Shown here: positions 37,610-42,471 of the stretch, in pieces | How the letters are laid out: each line of letters starts with the position of its first letter | Numbering within the stretch: position 1 is the first letter of the stretch | Source of the DNA: Bacillus sp. (in: firmicutes) | Lineage (GTDB): Bacteria > Bacillota > Clostridia > Lachnospirales > Lachnospiraceae | Assembly (NCBI GenBank): GCA_023666125.1 | Contig: JAMPCN010000008.1 | Location: 1-48,701 of the forward strand | Direction of reading: 5' to 3' | Length of the DNA: 48,701 bases | Position numbers and translations under genes: made by a program | The notes under the pieces: model-generated | What the model was told of the DNA's origin: nothing | Databases searched by the model: none | Seen by the model: the letters and a program-made list of their open reading frames with translations, nothing else

Positions 37610-38545
37610 TTAAATACTAAAATCAAACTTTCCGCCATATTCCGGCTTCTTCTCTGATTTTACGGCATCCCATTCTACTGATGCTATTTTTTCCATTAAT
37701 TCTTCCATGCTGTCCGCCTGTACGCTGGTGCGCTTGGTGTCTTTACTGTTTTTGGCGTAACTGAGCATTTCTTTTTTAGCCTCTTTTTCCTGTTCTTTTC
37801 TGTCGGCACGTTTTTCCTCTCTGGATTTTTCTAAACGCTCCCGTTGATTTGCGCTTGATTTTTCCAGTTCCGCAAAGAAACTTGTGGTACCGTCTTCATG
37901 AAATACCATGCCTATCTTAGTAATTTCCGAGGCTCCTTGTTCAAAACCAAATTGCCGATTGATTTTCTCAGACATTTTTACGGCATGTTCCATAGACTGC
38001 AATTTTTCTTTTGCGTAGTTCTCATCTTCCGCCATACGTTCCAGTTCTTCATTGGAAAAAACAACGGAAAACTCTTTTGTGCCGCTTTTTACTAAAGTTT
38101 TCAAATCATCCGTACTGTTGCCAACGAAAAAATCATATTTTCCGTATTGTTTCCTCAAGTTTTTCAAAAAGTCCTGCGCCTTTGAAGACAGTTTCGACTC
38201 ATTTGCTTTGGATATTTCACTTGTACTGTTAGAGGATTCGTTCTTTGCTCCTTTTTTAACACTATCCATCCAACGGGAAAGAAATGTTAGTCCGCTCTGT
38301 GTTCTTGCCCCGTCCGTTCCTGTGGCAATTTTAGAATATTTCGCATAAGCTTCCGGGTCATATTTCTCCATAAGTTTCTCTAAGTCTGCAGTTCTGAATG
38401 ACTTACCGGTCGTATCGCCTTTGATATCGTCCAGCGTTTCCGCCCTAGAAACACCTCTGTCCTCAATTCTTTTTAACTCTTCTTTCGCTTTTTTCGTGAT
38501 GTTTTGATAATCCGCCGCAATGTGCATATCCATGTTTACACTCAT
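37610..38545 (-). CDS. Uncharacterised protein, DUF6033-like
   Basis: About 311 residues, mostly charged and helical. The start MSVNMDMHIAADYQNITKKAKEE, the middle KAQDFLKNLRKQYGKYDFFVGNSTDDLKTLVKSGTKEFSVVFSNEELERMAEDENYAKEKLQSMEHAV, and the Lys/Glu-rich coil near residue 240-270 fit proteins annotated as DUF6033 in Lachnospiraceae, a name I give from memory. No signal peptide or membrane segment is visible. The frame is open to 38611, but I take ATG 38545 because GGAGG lies 7 bases before it. A structured RNA element ends just before that ribosome-binding site. It follows purB; function unknown. Confidence 0.7.
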   Translation of the reverse strand: MSVNMDMHIAADYQNITKKAKEELKRIEDRGVSRAETLDDIKGDTTGKSFRTADLEKLMEKYDPEAYAKYSKIATGTDGARTQSGLTFLSRWMDSVKKGAKNESSNSTSEISKANESKLSSKAQDFLKNLRKQYGKYDFFVGNSTDDLKTLVKSGTKEFSVVFSNEELERMAEDENYAKEKLQSMEHAVKMSEKINRQFGFEQGASEITKIGMVFHEDGTTSFFAELEKSSANQRERLEKSREEKRADRKEQEKEAKKEMLSYAKNSKDTKRTSVQADSMEELMEKIASVEWDAVKSEKKPEYGGKFDFSI

Positions 38546-38560
38546 ATTTTCCTCCATTCC

Positions 38561-38663
38561 GAAGCGTTTTACGCTGAGGATGCGAGCAGAATCGGGGATT
38601 CTGCTCTGCAATCAGGGGAATTTGTGACGCTTCTGCACAAATTCCGACTGAACTTGTTCAGTC
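38561..38663 (-). promoter_or_regulatory. Pseudoknot RNA element, copy B, before the DUF6033-like gene
   Basis: On the minus strand: hairpin 1 GACTGAAC-AA-GTTCAGTC (38663-38646). Hairpin 2 GGAATTTGTG / CACAAATTCC (38645-38617) with the 9-base loop CAGAAGCGT. Then hairpin 3 GAGCAGAATC / GATTCTGCTC (38606-38584), and ACGCTTC (38567-38561), which is complementary to GAAGCGT in the loop of hairpin 2. The ribosome-binding site follows within 10 bases. The same fold, with different but still pairing bases, lies at 41697-41764. Confidence 0.65.
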
Positions 38664-38699
38664 TATTGAAAAAAATGCTCATCAGAGATTTTTTTCAAT
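38663..38699 (-). other. Hairpin covering a possible 11-codon leader peptide
   Basis: ATTGAAAAAAAT / ATTTTTTTCAAT (38665-38699 area) is a perfect 12-bp stem. The minus strand has AGGAGG, then five bases, then TTG 38698, which opens an 11-codon frame (MKKISDEHFFQ) ending with TAG at 38663. The stem would hide the start codon. The frame may be an accident of the repeat; the strong ribosome-binding site makes it worth noting. Confidence 0.3.
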
Positions 38700-38720
38700 C
38701 TTTCCTCCTGAAATTTGTAT

Positions 38721-40172
38721 TTACACACTTATCTCCGCTTTCACCCCAAGCAATTCCTTATTTTCTTCCAAAATCGGATTGACAACCTCTGTGATGAATT
38801 TCTCCACCTGCAGCGGCGCGCGCCCGACATACTTGGATGGTTCCATTGTCTCTTGCAGTTCTTCCAGACTCATCGGGAAAGCGTCATCTTCGGCAATCAG
38901 TTCCAACAGGTTATTGTCTTTTCCCTCTTTTTTGACGTTAGCGCCCGCCTCCATGGAAAGTTCGCGGATTTTCTCATGCAGTTCCTGACGGTTGCCGCCC
39001 ATCTTCACGGCGTCCATCATAATATTTTCAGTCGCCATAAACGGCAGTTCGCTCATCAGACGCTTGGTAATAACTTTATCATAGACCACAAGGCCATCCA
39101 CCACATTGAGACATAAATCCAGAATGCCGTCAACGGCAAGAAATGCCTCCGGAATGGAGAGTCTCTTATTGGCCGAATCGTCGAGCGTTCTTTCAAACCA
39201 CTGTGTTGCGGATGTAATCGCGGGATTTAACGCGTCCACCATGACGAAACGGGAAAGCGATGCGATTCTTTCGCTTCTCATCGGATTGCGTTTATATGCC
39301 ATCGCGGAGGAACCAATCTGTCCTTTTTCAAACGGCTCTTCAATTTCTTTCAAGTGCTGCAACAGACGGATATCGTTTGACATCTTATGTGCGGAGGCAG
39401 CAATGCCCGCCAGCACGTTGCAGACTCTTGTATCCACCTTGCGGGAATAGGTCTGTCCCGAAACCGGGTAGCATTTTTCAAAGCCCATCTTCTTAGCTAT
39501 CATCGGGTCGATTTTATCAATGGTTTCCTGGTCGCCGTCAAATAATTCCAAAAAAGACGCCTGCGTACCGGTCGTTCCTTTGGAGCCAAGCAGTTTCATG
39601 GTAGAAAGCACATAGTCCAAGTCTTCCAAATCCAGACAGAATTCTTGCGCCCAAAGCGTCGCCCTTTTACCAACGGTTGTCGGCTGCGCCGGCTGAAAAT
39701 GGGTAAAGGCAAGCGTCGGAAGCGATTTATATTCCTGTGCAAATTTCGCCAGCTCGGCAATGACGTTCACCAGTTTCTTTTTCACAAGCTTCAGCGCCTG
39801 CGTCATCACAATAATATCCGTATTATCGCCGACATAGCAGGACGTCGCGCCTAAATGAATGATGCCCGCCGCTTTCGGACACTGTTTCCCGTATGCGTAT
39901 ACATGGCTCATAACGTCGTGGCGCACTTCCTTTTCCCTCGCTTTCGCAACGTCATAATTAATATCGTCCGCATGACTTTTCAACTCGTCAATCTGCTCTT
40001 TCGTGATAACGGGCTTTCCGTCCTGGCTTAAGCCTAACTCCATCTCCGTTTCCGCAAGGGCAATCCAGAGTTTACGCCATGTCCTGAATTTCATATCCGG
40101 TGAAAAAATATACTGCATTTCCTTACTGGCATACCGCTCCGACAGCGGGCTTACATATCTGTCTGTACTCAT
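38721..40172 (-). CDS. purB: Adenylosuccinate lyase PurB
   Basis: PurB splits fumarate from SAICAR and from adenylosuccinate, serving two steps of purine synthesis. The fumarase/aspartase signature is GSSAMAYKRNPMRSE. HLGATSCYVGDNTD, FTHFQPAQPTTVGKRATLWAQE and GTTGTQASF also fit. At 483 residues it belongs to the longer PurB type. The frame is open to 40346, overlapping purF; I take ATG 40172 since the protein then begins MSTDRYVSPLSERYASKEMQ, the normal start, with AGGGAGA upstream. Order purC, purF, purB. Confidence 0.95.
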   Translation of the reverse strand: MSTDRYVSPLSERYASKEMQYIFSPDMKFRTWRKLWIALAETEMELGLSQDGKPVITKEQIDELKSHADDINYDVAKAREKEVRHDVMSHVYAYGKQCPKAAGIIHLGATSCYVGDNTDIIVMTQALKLVKKKLVNVIAELAKFAQEYKSLPTLAFTHFQPAQPTTVGKRATLWAQEFCLDLEDLDYVLSTMKLLGSKGTTGTQASFLELFDGDQETIDKIDPMIAKKMGFEKCYPVSGQTYSRKVDTRVCNVLAGIAASAHKMSNDIRLLQHLKEIEEPFEKGQIGSSAMAYKRNPMRSERIASLSRFVMVDALNPAITSATQWFERTLDDSANKRLSIPEAFLAVDGILDLCLNVVDGLVVYDKVITKRLMSELPFMATENIMMDAVKMGGNRQELHEKIRELSMEAGANVKKEGKDNNLLELIAEDDAFPMSLEELQETMEPSKYVGRAPLQVEKFITEVVNPILEENKELLGVKAEISV

Positions 40173-40245
40173 AATATCAAATATCTCCCTCTCTTCATGA
40201 TAATCCCCATTTTTACTCAACCTGCAGGTTTTGGCCGCGCAAAAT

Positions 40246-41682
40246 TTATTCTTCAAACTCTCCCCTAATGTCATCCTTTGGTGGTTCCATAGGATAACTG
40301 CCTGTAAAACATCCTCTGCATATGCCAAGATGCCCTGCAATTTCATCCAGCCGCTCCATACGCAGATAAGCCAGCGTATCCGCCCCGATAATGCCGCGGA
40401 TATCCTCTACGGAACGCTCATAGGCGATAAGCTGCTCCCTTGCCGGTACATCCGTACCGAAATAGCAGGGATATAAAAACGGCGGCGAACTGACCCGCAT
40501 ATGTACTTCGGCTGCCCCCGCCTCGCGTAACATCCTGACTATCCTGTCGGAAGTCGTACCGCGTACAATGGAATCGTCTATCATGATAATCCGCTTTCCT
40601 TTGACTGCCTCTCTGATAGGATTCAGTTTTACCTGTACGCTGCTTTCCCGATTTTTCTGTTTCGGTTTGATAAAGGTACGGCCTACATAAGCGTTTTTAA
40701 CAAACGCCTGCCCATAGGGGATGCCGGACTGCATGGAATAACCAAGTGCCGCACAGTTGCCTGATTCCGGAACTCCCACAACCAAGTCTGCCTCTATAGG
40801 AGAGTCTATTGCCAGATACTTTCCCGCCAGGATACGGGAATCATAGACGCTGACGCCGTCGATATGGCTGTCAGGCCTCGCAAAATAAATATATTCAAAG
40901 ACGCATCTTGCCTGCTCTTCTTTCGCGATGCAATGTCTTTTATCTGATTCGATTCCTTTTTCGGGGGAAATGGTAACGATTTCTCCCGGTTCCACATCCC
41001 TGACAAATTCGGCGCCTATCGTATCGAGCGCGCATGTCTCCGACGCCAGGATATAGGCGTTTTCCCTTTTCCCGATACAAAGCGGCCTAAAGCCGTACGG
41101 GTCTCTTGCGCCGATAAGCTTTCTGGGCGACATGATTATCAGAGAATACGCTCCTTTTATTTTTAACATCGCCCGCCCTACGGCCTCTTCCACAGTACCG
41201 CAGTTTAAGCGCTCTCTCGCGACATGATAGGCGATGACCTCGGAGTCAATCGTCGTCTGAAAGATGGCTCCCGAATATTCCAGTTCATGCCGCAGCGTCG
41301 GCGCATTGATTAAATTGCCGTTATGCGCCAGCGCCAGCGTACCTTTTACATAATTTAAGACAAGCGGCTGCGCGTTTTCCCTTGTGCTGCTACCGGCTGT
41401 CGAATATCTGACATGCCCCACGCCGATATCGCCTTTTAATTTCTCCAGCGTATCAGGCGTGAAATTTTCATGTAAAAGCCCCATTTCCTTTGCGCTTAAA
41501 ACTTTTCCTTTCGGACCGTTCGTATCGCTGACCGCGATGCCGCAGCTTTCCTGTCCTCTGTGCTGCAATGCGAACAATCCGTAATAAATCGTAGAAGCTA
41601 CGTCATTTCCATCAAAATCATAGATACCAAAAACACCACACTCTTCCCTTAGTTTGCCTGTTTTCTCTATCTGATTTTTCAT
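40246..41682 (-). CDS. purF: Amidophosphoribosyltransferase PurF
   Basis: PurF makes phosphoribosylamine from PRPP and glutamine, the first committed step of purine synthesis. The Bacillus-type form has a short pro-peptide (14 residues), then Cys15 in REECGVFGIYDF, the nucleophile released by self-cleavage. GHVRYSTAG, AHNGNLIN and TTIDSEVI line the glutamine site. IIMIDDSIVRGTTSDR is the PRPP loop. Cys in RCVFEYIYF, YPCYFG and GICRGCFTG are the expected iron-sulfur ligands. The ribosome-binding site (GAGGATAAC) directly follows RNA element C. Confidence 0.97.
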   Translation of the reverse strand: MKNQIEKTGKLREECGVFGIYDFDGNDVASTIYYGLFALQHRGQESCGIAVSDTNGPKGKVLSAKEMGLLHENFTPDTLEKLKGDIGVGHVRYSTAGSSTRENAQPLVLNYVKGTLALAHNGNLINAPTLRHELEYSGAIFQTTIDSEVIAYHVARERLNCGTVEEAVGRAMLKIKGAYSLIIMSPRKLIGARDPYGFRPLCIGKRENAYILASETCALDTIGAEFVRDVEPGEIVTISPEKGIESDKRHCIAKEEQARCVFEYIYFARPDSHIDGVSVYDSRILAGKYLAIDSPIEADLVVGVPESGNCAALGYSMQSGIPYGQAFVKNAYVGRTFIKPKQKNRESSVQVKLNPIREAVKGKRIIMIDDSIVRGTTSDRIVRMLREAGAAEVHMRVSSPPFLYPCYFGTDVPAREQLIAYERSVEDIRGIIGADTLAYLRMERLDEIAGHLGICRGCFTGSYPMEPPKDDIRGEFEE

Positions 41683-41696
41683 GTTATCCTCATCCT

Positions 41697-41764
41697 AGAG
41701 CGTTTTTGCAACATGGCATATTTGTGACGCTCCGGCACAAATTGCCGTCTGAACTTGTTCAGAC
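41697..41764 (-). promoter_or_regulatory. Pseudoknot RNA element, copy C, before purF
   Basis: On the minus strand: hairpin 1 GTCTGAAC-AA-GTTCAGAC (41764-41747). Hairpin 2 GGCA-ATTTGTG / CACAAAT-A-TGCC (41746-41715) with the 9-base loop CCGGAGCGT. Then ACGCTCT (41703-41697), which pairs with GGAGCGT of that loop (six Watson-Crick pairs and one G-U). It fills the whole 84-bp gap between purC and purF and ends 6 bases before the purF ribosome-binding site. Confidence 0.65.
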
Positions 41765-41766
41765 TT

Positions 41767-42471
41767 CTATAAGCCAAGTCTCTTAAACACCTCGTTATAT
41801 GCCTCTTCCACGTTGCCTAAATCTCTGCGGAAGCGGTCTTTATCCAGCTTTTCGTTCGTATGGACATCCCAGAGCCTGCAAGTGTCAGGGCTTGTTTCGT
41901 CCGCAAGAATAATCTGTCCGTGATAACGTCCAAATTCTATCTTAAAATCAATCAGTTTGATATCCGCCTGTAAAAAGTATTTTTTCAACACTTCATTGAC
42001 TTTGAAGGCGTATTTTTTAATGGTGTCGATTTCCTCCCACGTCGCAAGCTTCATCGCTACCGCGAAATAGCTATTGATAAGCGGGTCGCCGAGTTCATCA
42101 TTTTTATAGCTGAATTCAATGGTCGGCTCTTCAAACGGCGTTCCCTCCGGCACGCCCAGTCTCTTGGAAAAACTTCCTGCCGCCACGTTGCGGATAATGA
42201 CTTCAAGCGGTACAATCTCCACTTTCTTGACCGCGGTTTCCCTGTCGCTTAATTCTTCGATGAGATGCGTCGGAACGCCCTCCTTTTCCAAAAGCTGAAA
42301 TACGCGGTTCGTCATTTTGTTATTGATGACGCCTTTTCCGACAATCGTGCCTTTCTTCTCGCCGTTAAACGCCGTTGCGTCGTCCTTATAATCCACGATT
42401 AAAATATCCGGGTCGTCCGTTTTAAATACTTTCTTTGCCTTTCCCTCATAAAGCTGGTCTAGTTTCTGCAT
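41767..42471 (-). CDS. purC: SAICAR synthetase PurC
   Basis: PurC joins aspartate to CAIR with [33 protein letters not shown] at the N terminus, [24 protein letters not shown], and [30 protein letters not shown] are all family signatures. At 234 residues it is the short bacterial type. It begins only 35 bp after the coiled-coil gene, with no promoter visible between, so it is probably transcribed from further upstream. Confidence 0.97.

Follow-up and report, generated by a model that had tools for sequence, protein, structure and literature searches.

A small structured RNA element, very probably mobile, that brings its own Shine-Dalgarno sequence to gene starts in gut Lachnospiraceae

The window studied here, a stretch of 48,701 nucleotides (nt) from contig JAMPCN010000008.1 (assembly GCA_023666125.1, deposited as Bacillus sp. 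and placed by GTDB in the Lachnospiraceae), carries on its minus strand two copies of a folded RNA element, one before a gene for a DUF6033 protein and one before a gene called purF. We found that this element is, judging by its sequence, a dispersed repeat of some gut Lachnospiraceae, with up to dozens of copies per genome. Read from 5' to 3', it consists of a hairpin P1, an optional hairpin P1b, a hairpin P2 with a 9-nt loop, an optional hairpin P3, a strand that pairs with the P2 loop and the sequence GGAATGGAG, which holds a Shine-Dalgarno (SD) sequence and is followed by the start codon. We consider it very probable that this is a small non-autonomous mobile element of about 90 to 160 nt whose RNA serves as a replacement for the 5' leader. 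Direct backing comes from the copies themselves, their position, the covariation of the pseudoknot formed by the P2 loop and the downstream strand, the existence of empty sites and the delivery of an SD where a GGAG-like one was lacking.

A pattern search of the element's own genome (G000) returned 18 places, one of them (L020) doubtful, and the core pattern, with up to three mismatches, had no match in 100 shuffled windows. The covariance search and copy count proposed in a first-pass annotation of the window were run with a model (R1) built from 16 of the 18 places. They gave 28 matches in the own genome at E ≤ 0.001 and 33 at E ≤ 0.1, the weakest of which, such as L076, are doubtful. Core identity across 16 copies had a median of 0.87 and a maximum of 0.97; the copies are thus many, similar and dispersed, as those of a small interspersed repeat are. 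Matches were present in 26 of 61 genomes (the own genome and 60 relatives): 25 of 37 genomes of the same genus were positive, the number of matches per genome ranging from 0 to at least 67, as was 1 of 24 genomes belonging to the order's other families. G006, a close sister of the own genome, had 42 matches, and G009 had 56. A family sample (E ≤ 1e-4, 16 candidates scored per genome) was positive in 37 of 250 genomes and 36 of 249 genera, and a class sample (14 candidates scored per genome) in 2 of 291 genomes, namely the own genome and another member of the family. At least 116 stretches matched in a pattern scan of named genomes. Among the matches listed (80 loci), the titles are nearly all those of Lachnospiraceae or other Clostridia bins, with Acetatifactor, Roseburia, Eisenbergiella, Lachnospira, Parablautia (a copy being present in Parablautia intestinalis D8-82) and Lachnospiraceae bacterium COE1 as named carriers; Cycloclasticus and Pelagibacteraceae, also among the matches listed, were read as chance. 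Plasmids gave no match. Three unannotated faecal scaffolds matched among phage records, and in one of these, MT836788.1 (L286, unverified), the element precedes an enolase gene (translation by eye), so that the phage scaffolds are probably bacterial contigs. Viral contigs gave two pattern matches, of which one is an element before a 601-codon frame and the other, by eye, looks like coding sequence. Five contigs of the own genome (C8, C12, C78, C99 and C126) start or stop in or near a copy; the repeat is therefore a probable cause of assembly breaks, and the actual number of copies may exceed these counts.

We aligned to R1 103 copies from 96 loci in many genomes, selected by hand from the available loci. 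In 92 of them, a sense start codon that opens at least 80 codons lies at −3 to +16 relative to the end of the core, and in 62 it lies at exactly +1. Since the naive random rate for the wider range is 16%, the weight rests on the exact offset. The distance from SD-like tetramer to start was 5 to 6 nt in 76 of the 90 copies in which such a tetramer was found. Of the remaining 11 copies, read by eye, three continue into a further copy or hairpin, and in seven an ATG that opens a short frame is present close to the expected position. Additionally, 26 of the 30 matches displayed from the own genome are followed by a start opening at least 70 codons, and an earlier parse placed a gene start behind at least 71 of 83 pattern matches. 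A coarse orientation control on long open reading frames (ORFs) counted a same-strand gene start within 30 nt in 50 of 92 cases, an opposite-strand start within 220 nt in 16 and a position inside a long ORF in 8. The first-pass annotation had named copies scattered at random in place and orientation, irrespective of gene starts, as the mark of a plain repeat; this was looked for and is not what the 103 copies display. Ten downstream proteins were scanned and fell into ten unrelated families (IlvD, mannose-6-phosphate isomerase, MatE, aminotransferase, lactate dehydrogenase, rubrerythrin, DnaX, TsaD, STAS and transglycosylase), and the element is therefore not the signature of a single-pathway regulon. 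The target genes likely include essential ones, for example, dnaX and tsaD.

The own genome was then compared with G006, with N-terminal identities of 76 to 97% at 14 sites. Among these 14 own-genome sites, G006 carries the element at four (ilvD, lysR, the L063 gene and MatE, the last with another P1), none at eight, a remnant at tsaD and a different hairpin structure at purF. Conversely, 17 of 18 G006 sites, chosen among the matches listed for that genome, could be located in G000, and 14 had no element there; the sites of L221 and L215 are filled in G000 too (L215 being clipped by a contig end), and that of L222 holds an apparent divergent variant. When all 31 orthologous loci were searched with R1, the outcome agreed with this, giving six clear matches (E ≤ 5.3e-12) at common sites, weak ones at the site of L222 (E 0.003) and at tsaD (0.015) and nothing further below E 0.06. 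In total, 22 sites, including that of the DUF6033 copy and leaving purF uncounted, are filled in only one of the two sisters, which is the pattern of filled and empty orthologous sites expected of a mobile repeat.

At 13 of these 22 sites, the flanks align by eye right up to the junction. The empty DUF6033 site of G006 reads AGGAGGAAAAAATATG, and its junction AAATTTCAGGAGGAAAAAATATGAGTG corresponds in the own genome to AAATTTCAGGAGGAAA, the insert and GGAATGGAGGAAAATATGAGTG. Wherever the junctions are unambiguous, the right end is separated from the start codon by 0 to 5 nt, and the left end comes after the native SD if the site has one; at clean sites, the insert thus sits between native SD and start codon. 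The empty site of L231 (GCGGTGTAAAAATG) has no GGAG-like SD, and the SD therefore arrived with the element. We also found a nested insertion, with L070 lying within the SD of the decayed copy L072. Two other decayed copies, L204 (at the tsaD site of G006) and L078, have kept only the 3' end and the SD, as if the element's SD had been retained after loss of the remainder. The proposal in the first-pass annotation that the RNA might be a mobile repeat with its own ribosome-binding site (RBS) is thus borne out by the many copies, the empty sites in the sister genome, the unrelated genes and the element-borne SD.

The same annotation had also offered a cis-regulatory RNA or a riboswitch-like element. 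A riboswitch or another cis-regulator of purine genes would suit the structured leader and the presence of two copies within a purine gene cluster. However, the genes behind the other copies scanned are unrelated rather than drawn from one ligand pathway, as would be expected of a riboswitch, and many copies are insertions missing from the sister genome. Moreover, purF is without the element in G007 and G001 and has the different hairpin structure in G006, and Rfam returned no match in the whole window at gathering cut-offs and none at E ≤ 5 over positions 38500 to 41850. Gene content and site turnover lead us to reject this reading, to which we assign almost no probability. The other insert before purF in G006 (L195, G006:C55:51500-52250) is itself structured, running from GGGTGAAAAGATGTTCT to AGAACATCTAAATTTCACCC and then into a second long hairpin, and may represent a related family of such leaders or a second one; 5' modules similar to it occur at L076 and L091.

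Covariation was scored on the 103 aligned copies, R1 holding P2 and P3 and not the pseudoknot. Across the 30 pairs of P2, P3 and the pseudoknot, 96.3% of 2978 cells are paired, against 34 to 52% in slid controls, and 445 cells are changed on both sides, against 133 in shuffles. The 7-bp pseudoknot alone is paired in 96.5% of 710 cells and has 48 double-sided changes against 13.4 in shuffles, none of 500 shuffles being as high; because the shuffles do not preserve relatedness among the copies, none of these figures is a probability. The helix between loop and strand, and with it an H-type pseudoknot, is thus backed by covariation. Several alternative loop/strand pairs were recognized by eye (TCAGAGC/GCTCTGA, CTGAGCG/CGCTCAG, GCAGCG/CGCTGC and GCAGGCG/CGCCTGC), and entire subfamilies combine a different loop with its matching strand, as with the first two of these. 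Widening the pseudoknot to the full 9-nt loop weakened it (88.2% paired, 19 of 102 copies breaking one of the pairs); pairing is poorer at the two outermost loop bases, and the helix is therefore of 7 bp with a short first loop, in the manner of an H-type pseudoknot. At the lysR site, common to G000 and G006, P2 differs by a compensatory change (TTTGAG..CTCAAA versus TTTGGG..CCCAAA), which, as far as the two sequences tell, is selection on structure after insertion. The claim of a selected RNA, made from two copies, now extends to 103 copies from many genomes, and selection on the RNA structure of the element is supported. Additional hairpins are nested within P3 at L085, L126, L135, L148 and L243, so that P3 seems to tolerate insertions. 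A divergent variant at L246 (1596-1670, minus strand; E 0.003 with R1) has the loop CTGCGC and the 3' strand GCGCAG, suggesting that the family is wider than R1 can detect.

P1 forms at least seven uninterrupted base pairs adjoining P2 in 83 of 101 copies, with diverse base sequences; the DUF6033 copy scored 6 in this count because P1b intervenes between P1 and P2. A start codon lies near the base of P1 in 84 of 101 copies, and 26 of the frames run without a stop almost to the SD, where shuffles give an expectation of 7.6, which would fit a leader peptide translated from there and acting by attenuation or translational coupling. However, the three frames, counted from the core end, are about equally common (31/28/25), and insertions and deletions among the copies shift the frame. 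A leader peptide was rejected on this ground and is exceedingly unlikely; with a reading frame that varies among copies, the element behaves as a protein-free one.

The conserved structure, the compensatory change at lysR and the pseudoknot adjoining the SD also speak for another account, a portable regulatory leader. Such a repeat would have spread by placing many genes under one trans-acting factor, be it an RNA-binding protein, a small RNA or a global ligand, that opens or closes the pseudoknot beside the SD. Consistent with such a switch, an internal CTCC can pair in most copies with either the GGAG of the loop or that of the SD. However, the SD-masking pairing, which we considered as the partner state, shows no covariation above shuffles (90.8% of cells paired versus 91.1%, 414/500) and was rejected in that role, feasible as it is in most copies. 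Furthermore, the sister genomes differ in their sets of sites, and the ten scanned genes are unrelated. CsrA, one candidate factor, is encoded in 36 of the 37 genus genomes, element or not, and is therefore not discriminating, and the loop GGA is missing in several variants. We regard a regulatory leader as distinctly improbable, and control of translation start by the element itself as plausible.

According to our favored reading of a mobile replacement leader, the element inserts into the short gap that separates SD and start codon, with the sense orientation in those copies that were examined. It carries the structured RNA made of P1, the optional P1b, P2, the optional P3 and the pseudoknot between the P2 loop and a strand near the 3' end, and its terminal SD comes to lie 5 to 6 nt ahead of the native start codon. 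The target gene would still be translated, now presumably from the element's SD, and the insertion would hence be tolerated and nearly neutral, which would explain dozens of copies before unrelated genes. The pseudoknot may hold away the internal anti-SD (CTCC, in strand ACGCTCC) and so keep the SD usable, and targeting may proceed by recognition of an SD. A bolder version is that this is the first selfish RNA element whose niche is the RBS, targeting the SD perhaps through CTCC:GGAG pairing and possibly through an mRNA or cDNA intermediate, with a pseudoknot-guarded SD that rewires translation starts genome-wide; this we put forward tentatively, as a possibility that may well prove wrong.

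Several observations weigh against a mobile replacement leader. The number of pseudoknot pairs with a double change (four) was equalled in 70 of 500 shuffles, and the pseudoknot slid by −1 pairs in 91.0% of cells, but gaps leave 211 cells there, with no double change. Blocking the pseudoknot strands in nested folds hardly moved the mean predicted SD accessibility, from 0.37 to 0.42, with 41 copies up and 36 down out of 94. The sense placement at start codons could in part be survivorship. Most clean sites have either no clear target-site duplication or a short one, with a loss of some bases of the spacer. Neither a transposase nor a parent element turned up, no search aimed at a larger element with the same ends having been made, and G006 and G009 contain neither Y1_Tnp nor RVT_1.

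The ends bear equally on whether the element is an ordinary miniature inverted-repeat transposable element (MITE) of a DNA transposon whose target preference coincides with the SD region. Many similar copies and the nested insertion agree with a MITE, as do the SD-like sequences on both sides of L007, L014 and L017 (matches of 8 to 10 nt) and a 6-nt overlap at dnaX. The longer overlaps at dnaX, manA and L228 are ambiguous because the native site resembles the element's end. By eye, the 13 clean sites have overlaps of mostly 0 to 2 nt or a small loss, and thus no constant duplication. A few spacer bases are missing at L219, L217, L220, L224, L229 and spoIIAA, and the flanks of the first four are not duplicated. 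Terminal inverted repeats were not found either: in 23 copies with a recognizable P1 start, one end matched the reverse complement of the opposite end over at most 2 to 5 nt. As candidate movers, a Y1 transposase and a reverse transcriptase were both rejected, as neither Y1_Tnp (13 of 37 draft genus genomes) nor RVT_1 (15 of 37) tracks the element, and Y1_Tnp was not detected in the five most copy-rich genomes (G006, G009, G014, G029 and G031); since the genomes are drafts, such absences are weak evidence. Taken together, we find a MITE of the ordinary kind unlikely.

Both elements of the window were confirmed on the minus strand where they had been described, each with a hairpin, a P2 with a 9-base loop and a loop-complementary strand before the RBS, and the three compensatory differences between them are as described. 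The 'hairpin 1' of the first-pass annotation is present; it is not part of the core and corresponds to the optional P1b. Two further hairpins of the DUF6033 copy escaped that annotation, a longer one on the 5' side (38699-38665) and a third one (38610-38581); both are missing from the purF copy.

In the DUF6033 copy (all features on the minus strand), P1 (ATTGAAAAAAATC...TTTTTTTCAAT) spans 38665..38699 and P1b (GACTGAACAAGTTCAGTC), a module that recurs at L003, L015 and L019, spans 38646..38663, both seen in the sequence. Sequence and covariation together place P2 at 38617..38645, with its loop at 38635-38627, P3 at 38581..38610 and the 3' strand of the pseudoknot, ACGCTTC, at 38561..38567, its partner being loop bases GAAGCGT at 38633-38627. 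On its 3' side, the element ends (GGAATGGAGG) with the SD GGAGG (38551..38555), recognized by sequence and by the empty site, and the gene starts with the ATG at 38545. Upstream of the insert, the native SD region CAGGAGGAAA remains at 38701..38710, as the empty site of G006 indicates. The gene itself (37610..38545, minus strand) matches Pfam PF19498 (E 1.1e-44). At 38557-38543, as in many other copies, an ATG lies inside GGAATGGAG, often 12 nt upstream of the gene start and in frame with it, so that automatic gene calling may add residues (MEIIM, MEENM).

The purF copy, likewise on the minus strand and assigned by sequence, lacks P1 and P3 and consists of P1b, P2 and the pairing strand only. 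P1b (GTCTGAACAAGTTCAGAC, 41747..41764) starts two bases past the purC stop codon and is followed by P2 (41715..41746, loop 41735-41727) and by the pseudoknot 3' strand ACGCTCT (41697..41703), the partner of GGAGCGT at 41733-41727. The SD GAGG (41688..41691) precedes the ATG at 41682. The gene behind it (40246..41682, minus strand) encodes a purF-like amidotransferase/phosphoribosyltransferase, with Pfam matches to GATase_7 (E 5.7e-19) and to Pribosyltran (E 6.4e-06, just under the cut-off of that model); like the earlier annotation, we take it to be purF.

As a rule, mobile elements proliferate at places where little harm results. The present element occupies the spacer between SD and start codon, a highly constrained spot, and appears to replace the function that its insertion interrupts. 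Should this be confirmed, the element would represent a natural, portable leader for translation initiation that took the place of the RBSs of dozens of gut-bacterial genes, and it would offer a testable system for the effect of SD-adjacent structure on translation. Some broken assemblies and uncertain gene starts in genomes of the Lachnospiraceae may also be due to it, and one may ask which machinery can target an RBS.

No paper on the element was found by title or abstract in the literature searched, subscription papers and supplements lying beyond reach. H-type pseudoknots adjacent to the SD are known from the preQ1 and SAM-II riboswitches. The element is like these in having a pseudoknot just upstream of the SD and unlike them in being mobile, in not being bound to one pathway and in having no Rfam match. 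REP/RAYT systems and the IS200/IS605 family have hairpins near their ends, insert with little or no duplication and involve tetranucleotides such as GGAG. End hairpins, scant duplication and a GGAG-type tetranucleotide recur in the element; in contrast, it is without a detected Y1 in the five top genomes, and 92 of the 103 aligned copies lie in sense orientation ahead of a start codon. MITEs, as far as the accessible parts of two sources describe them, resemble the element in being shorter than 200 bp, non-coding and dispersed (PMC2229807, PMC3049150). Unlike MITEs so described, the element has no terminal inverted repeats and no consistent target duplication, and it has an RNA pseudoknot and a single orientation relative to the gene. 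An unnamed entry in the supplementary motif tables of PMC8040213 is possible, those tables lying outside the literature comparison. The BOX, RUP and SPRITE repeats of Streptococcus pneumoniae are, in the accessible part of the source, small, non-autonomous, multi-copy, folded when transcribed, nested and thought to be parasitic (PMC3049150), and RUP is described with a TA target and a related IS630 transposase (PMC2229807). The element agrees with the repeats so described in its small size, non-autonomy, multiple copies, tightly folded transcripts and nested insertions (PMC3049150). Against the descriptions available there, a target in the spacer between SD and start, a fixed orientation, an SD of its own and a pseudoknot are features of the element alone (PMC3049150, PMC2229807). 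In kind, the element is nevertheless a small non-autonomous interspersed repeat, like BOX or RUP as these are described in those parts of the sources.

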